From Bacteroidota bacterium (lineage in GTDB: Bacteria > Bacteroidota > Bacteroidia > NS11-12g > UBA955), in contig JAGXTF010000031.1 in the NCBI GenBank assembly GCA_018333525.1, positions 1 through 64,000 on the forward strand: a stretch of 64,000 nt of DNA, read 5' to 3'. Within the stretch, counting starts at the first letter, position 1. Every line of letters begins with the position of its first letter. A program made the position numbers and the translations under genes. This document shows positions 11,802-12,610 of this stretch, one piece after another. Under the pieces are notes generated by a model that ran no database searches, was not told the DNA's origin, and was given only the letters and a program-made list of their open reading frames with translations.

Positions 11802-11927
11802 GGAGGGAGTATTGGCGAAATTTTACATGAATGTGTTAATCAAAGCTAGTGGATTGGGAAGAGAAAAGCAAGGTATTTGGGGCCTGATAAAAAAGGGATG
11901 ATTTTTGTACATTTGCCCCGGATCAAT

Positions 11928-12142
11928 GGGTCTGAATGCGAATGCTTCGCAATCGCATCGAGGGCCCGAAAAATTAAATCGTAATAGAATATCAGAAATG
12001 ATATTTGGTTCGATAGGTCCCGATTGCGAAAGCTTTGCAATCGTATCGAGGAACCGAGAAATTACGCAAGTATGGAATATCCTGGTTTGATATTTTGCTT
12101 GCGAGGTCCTGAAGCAGATTGCTTCGCAAACACTTCAGGACC
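11928..12142. repeat. Three hairpin repeats upstream of tRNA-Pro
   Basis: Three related stem-loops lie at 11928-11967, 12007-12055 and 12105-12142. Each contains a GCTTCGC or GCTTTGC loop core and each is followed by CGAAAAATTA or CGAGAAATTA. The inner stems are ATGCGA/TCGCAT, CGATTGC/GCAATCG and the perfect 10-bp GGTCCTGAAG/CTTCAGGACC. The stretches between them hold further small inverted repeats. Nothing in 11802-12177 codes for a protein. Confidence 0.7.
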
Positions 12143-12181
12143 CGAAAAATTAAGCAAATCAGAGATTTGCTATTTTTCGGG
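12141..12181. repeat. Hairpin overlapping the tRNA-Pro 5' end
   Basis: The arms are CCCGAAAAAT (12141-12150) plus AGCAAATC (12153-12160), facing GATTTGCT (12164-12171) plus ATTTTTCGGG (12172-12181). This makes an 18-bp stem with only a two-base bulge (TA) and an AGA loop. The 3' arm includes the first four bases of the tRNA, so the hairpin and the tRNA acceptor stem are mutually exclusive. Confidence 0.65.
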
Positions 12182-12251
12182 ATGTAGCGCAGCCAGGTAG
12201 CGCACCACGTTCGGGACGTGGGGGTCGCTGGTTCGAATCCAGTCATCCCGA
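12178..12251 (+). tRNA. tRNA-Pro (anticodon CGG)
   Basis: A 74-base cloverleaf. The acceptor stem is CGGGATG/CATCCCG, the D arm GCGC-AGCCAGGTA-GCGC, the anticodon stem CCACG/CGTGG with loop TTCGGGA, and the T arm GCTGG-TTCGAAT-CCAGT (ending in a G-T pair), with discriminator A. The anticodon CGG reads CCG proline codons. CCA is not encoded: the bases after the discriminator are CAA. Its last 16 bases are copied again at 12427, and partly at 12602, as part of tandem repeats. Confidence 0.97.
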
Positions 12252-12426
12252 CAAGTCAAGCCTTTTTCATCGAAGATGAAAAGGGCTTTTTTATGCGCTA
12301 CGAGTCAAATCCGATCCGCCGCGGCGGAAGGAGGATTAAGCGAGTATGTGAATAAAAAAGACCAATTCCGCGCAGCGGAATAAGGCTTGACTTGTAACGC
12401 CCTCCCCTTTTGGATCATCGTTAGAT
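12236..12426. repeat. tRNA-tail structured repeat, unit 1
   Basis: This 191-bp unit begins with the tRNA 3' end AATCCAGTCATCCCGACAA (12236-12254). It holds nested stems: ACAAGTCAAGCC (12251)/GGCTTGACTTGT (12384); TTTTCATC-GAA-GATGAAAA; CTTTTTTAT (12286)/ATAAAAAAG (12352); AATCC (12308)/GGATT (12333) around CCGCC-GC-GGCGG; and ATTCCGC-GCA-GCGGAAT (12365-12381). It ends in CTCCCCTTTTGGATCAT before the next tRNA tail. No reading frame of interest is present. Confidence 0.8.
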
Positions 12427-12610
12427 AATCCAGTCATCCCGACAAACAAAAGCATTGGCGCAGCCAGGGCTTTTTAACGCGCAACGAGTCTAACTCGACG
12501 TAAGGAGAGTTAAGCGAAGTGTCACATTAAAAAGACCACTTTTCGCGCAGCGAAAAAAGGCTTTTGTAAGTATCTCCCTCTTGTTGGATCATTTGAAAAA
12601 TAATCCAGTC
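12427..12610. repeat. tRNA-tail structured repeat, unit 2
   Basis: The second unit begins with the same 19-base tRNA tail (12427-12445) and ends at a third, partial tail AATCCAGTC (12602-12610). Its stems stand in the same order as in unit 1 but with different bases: ACAAAAGC (12446)/GCTTTTGT (12560); TGGC-GCA-GCCA; CTTTTTAA (12470)/TTAAAAAG (12527); TAACTC (12491)/GAGTTA (12507); TTTTCGC-GCA-GCGAAAA (12540-12556). Conserved unpaired parts include ACGAGTC, TTAAGCGA, AGACCA and TTGGATCAT. Confidence 0.8.

Follow-up and report, generated by a model that had tools for sequence, protein, structure and literature searches.

What kind of DNA lies directly behind this proline tRNA gene, and is it a private duplication of one genome or a member of a wider family? 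The window is a 64,000-nucleotide stretch of a Bacteroidota genome (contig JAGXTF010000031.1, positions 1 to 64,000, forward strand), and the tRNA gene, units and stems located in it below lie on its plus strand. An earlier note, made from the sequence alone, had described two adjacent gene-free units that each begin with a copy of the tRNA tail and share stems with paired changes, and had proposed a non-autonomous mobile element that inserts at the tRNA, repairs its 3' end and belongs to no recognised family. The description proved accurate to the base, and the reading built on it is supported, with qualifications that are given below beside the evidence concerned.

The host gene, tRNA-Pro (CGG), spans 12178-12252, as identified by ARAGORN and by Rfam RF00005 (64.8 bits). 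The AATCC of its T-loop begins at 12236 and recurs at 12427 and 12602, defining unit 1 (12236-12426, 191 bp, from T-loop A58 of the tRNA to the base before the second tail copy) and unit 2 (12427-12601, 175 bp, complete). Tail copy 1 (12236-12254, from the T-loop to the tRNA 3' end) and tail copy 2 (12427-12445) are identical over 19 nt (AATCCAGTCATCCCGACAA), whereas the third copy (12602-12610) is decayed and keeps 9 nt (AATCCAGTC). Upstream of the tRNA, at 11919-12177, lie several hairpin-rich repeats ending in CCCGAAAAATTA or similar, and a similar block precedes tRNA-Pro(GGG) in the same genome (locus L003; loci and genomes are designated L and G hereafter, the window's own genome being G000).

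All the stems listed in the earlier note exist and fold as stated there. Both units fold into an outer stem, a first hairpin, a long central stem capped by stem IV, a third hairpin, and a separate 3' hairpin that overlaps the next tail copy. In unit 1, the outer stem is formed by a 5' arm at 12251-12262 (ACAAGTCAAGCC) and a 3' arm at 12384-12395 (GGCTTGACTTGT), accompanied by hairpin 1 plus its T-run (12258-12292), the central stem with arms at 12286-12298 (CTTTTTTATGCGC) and 12348-12360 (GTGAATAAAAAAG), stem IV (12308-12337, AATCC/GGATT), flanked by the conserved strands ACGAGTC and AAGCGA, and hairpin 3 (12365-12381, ATTCCGC-GCA-GCGGAAT), which holds the GCGNAGC minihairpin motif. A pyrimidine stretch (CCCTCCCC, 12400-12407) separates the outer stem from a T-arm mimic at 12411-12432 (TGGATCAT...ATAATCCA) that overlaps tail copy 2; runs of at least 7 pyrimidines occur in 55 of 109 units. 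In unit 2, the outer stem arm at 12446-12453 (ACAAAAGC) pairs with 12560-12567 (GCTTTTGT), hairpin 1 plus T-run lies at 12449-12475, the central stem pairs 12470-12477 (CTTTTTAA) with 12527-12534 (TTAAAAAG), hairpin 3 occupies 12540-12556 (TTTTCGC-GCA-GCGAAAA), and the T-arm mimic (TGGATCAT...ATAATCCA) lies at 12585-12607. Stem IV of unit 2 (12492-12511, AACTC/GAGTT) is seen in the RNA fold and in the alignment, while the DNA fold pairs this stretch differently. Folded as DNA, unit 1 reached z = -6.7 and unit 2 z = -3.8, and the reverse strand folded only slightly less strongly than the forward strand. One element can be added to the earlier description: hairpin 1 with its T-run is a canonical intrinsic terminator, and since its 5' arm is also the inner part of the outer stem and can pair either with its own 3' arm or with the distal arm of the unit, the outer stem and the terminator compete.

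The next question was whether the units recur, since a lack of further copies in other genomes had been named in advance as grounds for rejecting the reading. The window's own genome contains a further unit behind tRNA-Pro(TGG) and a diverged one behind tRNA-Arg(ACG). A covariance model of the part after the tRNA found 36 hits in 19 of 70 genomes of the family, and a second model built from 23 hits found units in 41 of 79 genomes of the order and in 69 of 396 genomes sampled from the class (40 of 196 genera); the hits within the window were 12257-12386 and 12449-12561. A broader sample of the phylum was dominated by the same class, so that the distribution beyond it was not tested. The nearest named relatives of a window protein were distant Bacteroidota. 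Exact-pattern scans of genome and viral collections for the hairpin 3 motif found nothing.

The reading had likewise been exposed to the possibility that hits would not lie next to tRNAs, and this possibility was not borne out. The models contain no tRNA sequence, yet of 118 listed places (two of them antisense duplicates, leaving about 116 distinct places), 99 begin 0-15 nt after a complete tRNA gene on the same strand, distributed over 11 isotypes: Ser 27, Pro 23, Arg 18, Met 11, Leu 10, Cys 3, Asp 2, Val 2, Gln 1, Ala 1 and Lys 1. Seven more are second or third tandem units. The remaining places lie at a contig end or behind a tRNA 3' fragment that begins in the anticodon loop or the T-arm, two of them (L058 and L110) with only a short or doubtful fragment. 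Units without a tRNA first looked like ectopic transposition, but each readable one, including L101, L123, L077, L130, L134 and L099, follows such a fragment. Fragments of this kind are what islands leave when they integrate into tRNA genes, so these units were already attached when the island came and do not represent new insertion sites. In genome G029 (loci L096-L098, contig C5, 85-126 kb), a 40-kb stretch with some T6SS-like genes, judged by eye, lies between tRNA-Ser(GCT) with its unit and a displaced tRNA-Ser tail with a unit; the left flanks of this orphan and of L099 share ATTGATNATCAAT, a possible integrase arm site.

Evidence for insertion came from comparing filled and empty sites. 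Within one genus of the family, four genomes (G041, G045, G033 and G017) have at tRNA-Pro(GGG) the plain site GTTCG-AATCTCGCCATCCCGACC-CAGTAAAATCAAGGCC, the last part being the terminator. Three others (G005, G104 and G037) have the same site with a unit in front, 162-163 bp including one copy of the 18-bp repeat AATCTCGCCATCCCGACC, and the old terminator follows the second repeat; another genome, G030, shows the same insert at a displaced tRNA 3' end. The same arrangement of unit, tail copy and plain terminator is seen at tRNA-Cys in G341 and at tRNA-Arg(ACG) in G015. Precise loss by recombination between the direct repeats would give the same empty sites, so polarity is not proven for each case; the units are insertions, or are precisely lost, and they restore the tRNA tail and bring a terminator. 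Most tRNA-Pro genes of relatives carry only a plain terminator. Plain sites behind tRNA-Pro(GGG) at L230-L240 share a terminator plus the direct repeats GGTTCAAACATGGTTCAAACA and then diverge completely, as if they were left ends of different islands.

Units also stack and decay. Tandem units with intact tails occur in the window and at L048, L072, L076, L078 and L083, and in many arrays the downstream copies have lost the part up to the central stem while keeping the 3' end. The second half of a unit can also be absent on its own: at tRNA-Pro(TGG), genomes G026 (L282) and G031 (L278) share hairpin 1 and trailer, but G031 lacks everything after the T-run. Other bodies occupy comparable positions. 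Behind tRNA-Lys(TTT) at L090 (338-650), another tandem repeat of about 125 bp starts with the tRNA tail but has a different body, possibly a second family with the same target, and behind tRNA-Ser(TGA) at L103 (1306-1440) a 130-bp insert of a different body, with its own terminator and a tail copy, precedes a canonical unit.

Most units are closest to the unit behind the same tRNA in related species, so that inheritance is mainly vertical and mobility is rare. The four same-genome pairs with the highest near-full-length similarity (87 bits or more; L085/L086, L088/L089, L108/L109 and the two Pro units of G018) are all between isoacceptors, which fits an element that needs, or carries, a matching tail. 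The outer stem is specific to its locus: over 105 loci, its score reached at least 10 in 60% of loci, against 6.6% when the 3' halves of other loci were used.

Copies that conserve sequence without paired changes would also have counted against the reading, and the alignments showed the opposite. Across 91 units, 96.3% of cells pair, 29 of 31 base pairs show changes on both sides, and the covariation score is 0.751, against 0.168 for shuffled alignments and at most 0.105 for slid partners; helix 1, corresponding to hairpin 1, is 98.5% paired. The alignment was fitted to the model, which favours the structure, but the margin is large, and the earlier set of 23 units gives the same picture.

Whether this structure is read as RNA or as DNA was approached through G-U pairs, which should be tolerated in RNA. 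In hairpin 1 they make up 7.3% of pairs, and 83% of its non-Watson-Crick cells are G-U, similar to tRNA acceptor stems (5.2%) and T stems (12.1%) of the same genomes. In the other stems they account for 1-3% of pairs (1.4% in stem IV and 2.2% in hairpin 3), and the commonest non-Watson-Crick cells in stem IV and hairpin 3 are G-A. The RNA-type signature is thus present in hairpin 1 and absent from stem IV and hairpin 3, a divided outcome that does not settle whether the unit as a whole is a structured RNA gene; transcription was not examined. GCGNAGC, an extraordinarily stable DNA minihairpin with a GNA loop (PMC4686876), occurs in hairpin 3 of 49 of 105 units and in the T-arm mimic of 30 of 105, against about 0.02 per window in the background and few on the other strand. 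Hairpin 1 therefore looks like an RNA terminator and the rest like a DNA fold on the tRNA-sense strand, although the G-U argument is indirect, because template switching in palindromes can create and maintain paired changes without selection (PMC8794818) and would also skip G-U intermediates.

Taken together, we favour, with moderate confidence, a Bacteroidota family of gene-less, non-autonomous mobile elements (about 140-175 bp plus a 17-19-bp repeat) whose only site is the 3' end of tRNA genes. What the data demonstrate directly is the position of units behind tRNA genes, the filled and empty sites that differ by a unit flanked by direct repeats running from T-loop position 58 to the tRNA 3' end, the new tail and terminator with displacement of the old ones, the stacking and decay, the structure conserved with pervasive paired changes, the scarcity of G-U pairs outside the terminator hairpin and the enrichment of GCGNAGC on the tRNA-sense strand. 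The mechanism, in contrast, is deduced: the tRNA-sense strand would fold as single-stranded DNA, or as an extruded cruciform, into a four-way junction plus a hairpin that imitates the tRNA T-arm, and a recombinase or transposase encoded elsewhere would use that hairpin and the T-loop of the tRNA gene to insert the element. No mobilising gene and no autonomous longer version were found, and no copy was found outside tRNA contexts. In this view, because the unit carries tail and terminator, the tRNA stays functional and expressed and insertion is nearly harmless, with most copies then inherited vertically and occasional movement between isoacceptor genes that share a similar tail. A bolder version, possible but tentative, is a new class of single-stranded-DNA mobile element spread through the class Bacteroidia, in which a host or trans-acting recombinase recognises the fold of the strand with its T-arm mimic and tRNA tail and terminator are rebuilt at each insertion.

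Among the alternatives, the one that survives best, although it is unlikely, is a host-owned structured RNA or bidirectional terminator of tRNA genes, in which the unit is a functional trailer (terminator, processing signal or antisense terminator) kept by selection on RNA and duplicates are ordinary tandem duplications. Hairpin 1 with its T-run is a good terminator with RNA-like G-U content, hairpin 3 with the A-run is a terminator on the other strand, and vertical inheritance predominates. However, the filled and empty sites with tail repeats and displaced older terminators speak against it, as does the fact that many tRNA genes in the same family have only a plain terminator. In addition, everything beyond the T-run should rarely be transcribed, yet it is the most covarying part, and G-U pairs are rare there.

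Less likely still is a purely mutational origin of the covariation, with units as palindromes kept paired by template switching during replication (PMC8794818) without selection on structure. Changes on both sides are far commoner than changes on one side, G-U intermediates are scarce beyond hairpin 1, and the unit is a near-palindrome, as shown by antisense hits of the covariance model; covariation beyond hairpin 1 could in part have this source. Nevertheless, the fixed architecture and the conserved unpaired and loop motifs need selection or descent from a functional element, and the tail repeats and insertions are left unexplained. Similarly improbable is the view of units as scars of tRNA-targeting genomic islands, each being the tRNA-proximal end of an integrated island whose cargo was lost. 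The direct repeat is the classic attB segment and islands do use these tRNAs, as in the G029 region, but constant unit size and a conserved fold over about 25 families do not fit random cargo loss, tandem units join without any remnant, and orphan units were displaced together with the tRNA 3' end. The weakest alternative is a retroelement in which the unit RNA, or the tRNA itself as primer, is reverse transcribed and inserted at tRNA 3' ends: although the 5'-truncated downstream copies could be incomplete cDNAs and the repeat starts at tRNA position 58, where tRNA-primed reverse transcription stops in retroviruses, the reverse transcriptase domain PF00078 (RVT_1) is absent from G000 and 18 other genomes of 24 searched, including most of those with intact tail repeats, truncated copies can also arise by deletion inside arrays, and a terminator inside the unit would prevent a full-length template.

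If the favoured reading is right, a previously unnoticed family of tiny mobile elements sits behind tRNA genes across a major bacterial class, targeting the same tRNA tails as genomic islands and phages, yet kept as a folded DNA strand. It would offer a test case for how recombinases read DNA folds, for how insertions into essential genes are made harmless, and for separating RNA-level from DNA-level selection by G-U content. Annotation pipelines and structured-RNA surveys miss it. In Rfam 15, only tRNA reached the curated gathering score in the window and in 16 related loci, and a relaxed search of the region gave only chance-level hits. BLAST against phages and plasmids returned no relative, and patterns for the T-arm mimic in viral contigs gave no hit or hits with no unit or tRNA. 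Literature searches for a described family near tRNAs in Bacteroidetes found none, and the one paper with similar palindromic Bacteroidetes motifs places them near other genes (PMC8040213).

Among described systems, the units can be compared with tRNA-targeting integrative elements, which use a tyrosine integrase and an attB running from the T-loop to the tRNA 3' end. The units share the direct repeat and the restoration of the tRNA, but they have about 160 bp, no integrase gene and no cargo, and no integrase-like ORF was seen among the nearby ORFs of the window; they also have a conserved multi-stem fold, carry a terminator, and their T-arm mimic has loops of variable length rather than a fixed core. 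With MITEs and other non-autonomous bacterial transposable elements they share small size, absence of genes, palindromy and multiple copies, but they have one kind of target, low copy number, direct repeats that are tRNA sequence, and no terminal inverted repeats at the ends of the insert, and no longer relative was found. REP/BIME elements mobilised by Y1 (RAYT) transposases likewise consist of folded single-stranded hairpins in inverted pairs and are non-autonomous, yet they are dispersed over intergenic regions, whereas essentially all of the about 116 places examined here follow a tRNA or tRNA fragment. The Y1 domain PF01797 was present in 15 of 24 genomes, with 5 copies in the window's own genome, but absent from G015, G104, G037, G270 and G300, several of the genomes lacking it having intact tail repeats, a pattern that leaves a REP/BIME-like or IS200/IS605-like mobilisation undecided. 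Integron attC sites and folded single-stranded attachment sites such as that of phage CTX are also recombination sites conserved as a folded DNA strand rather than as sequence; here the target is a tRNA gene and no gene cassettes were seen in the arrays, while R/L boxes and an integron integrase (IntI) were not searched for. Finally, intrinsic terminators of tRNA genes correspond to hairpin 1 with its T-run, which makes up only the first fifth of the unit, the rest having separate conserved stems.
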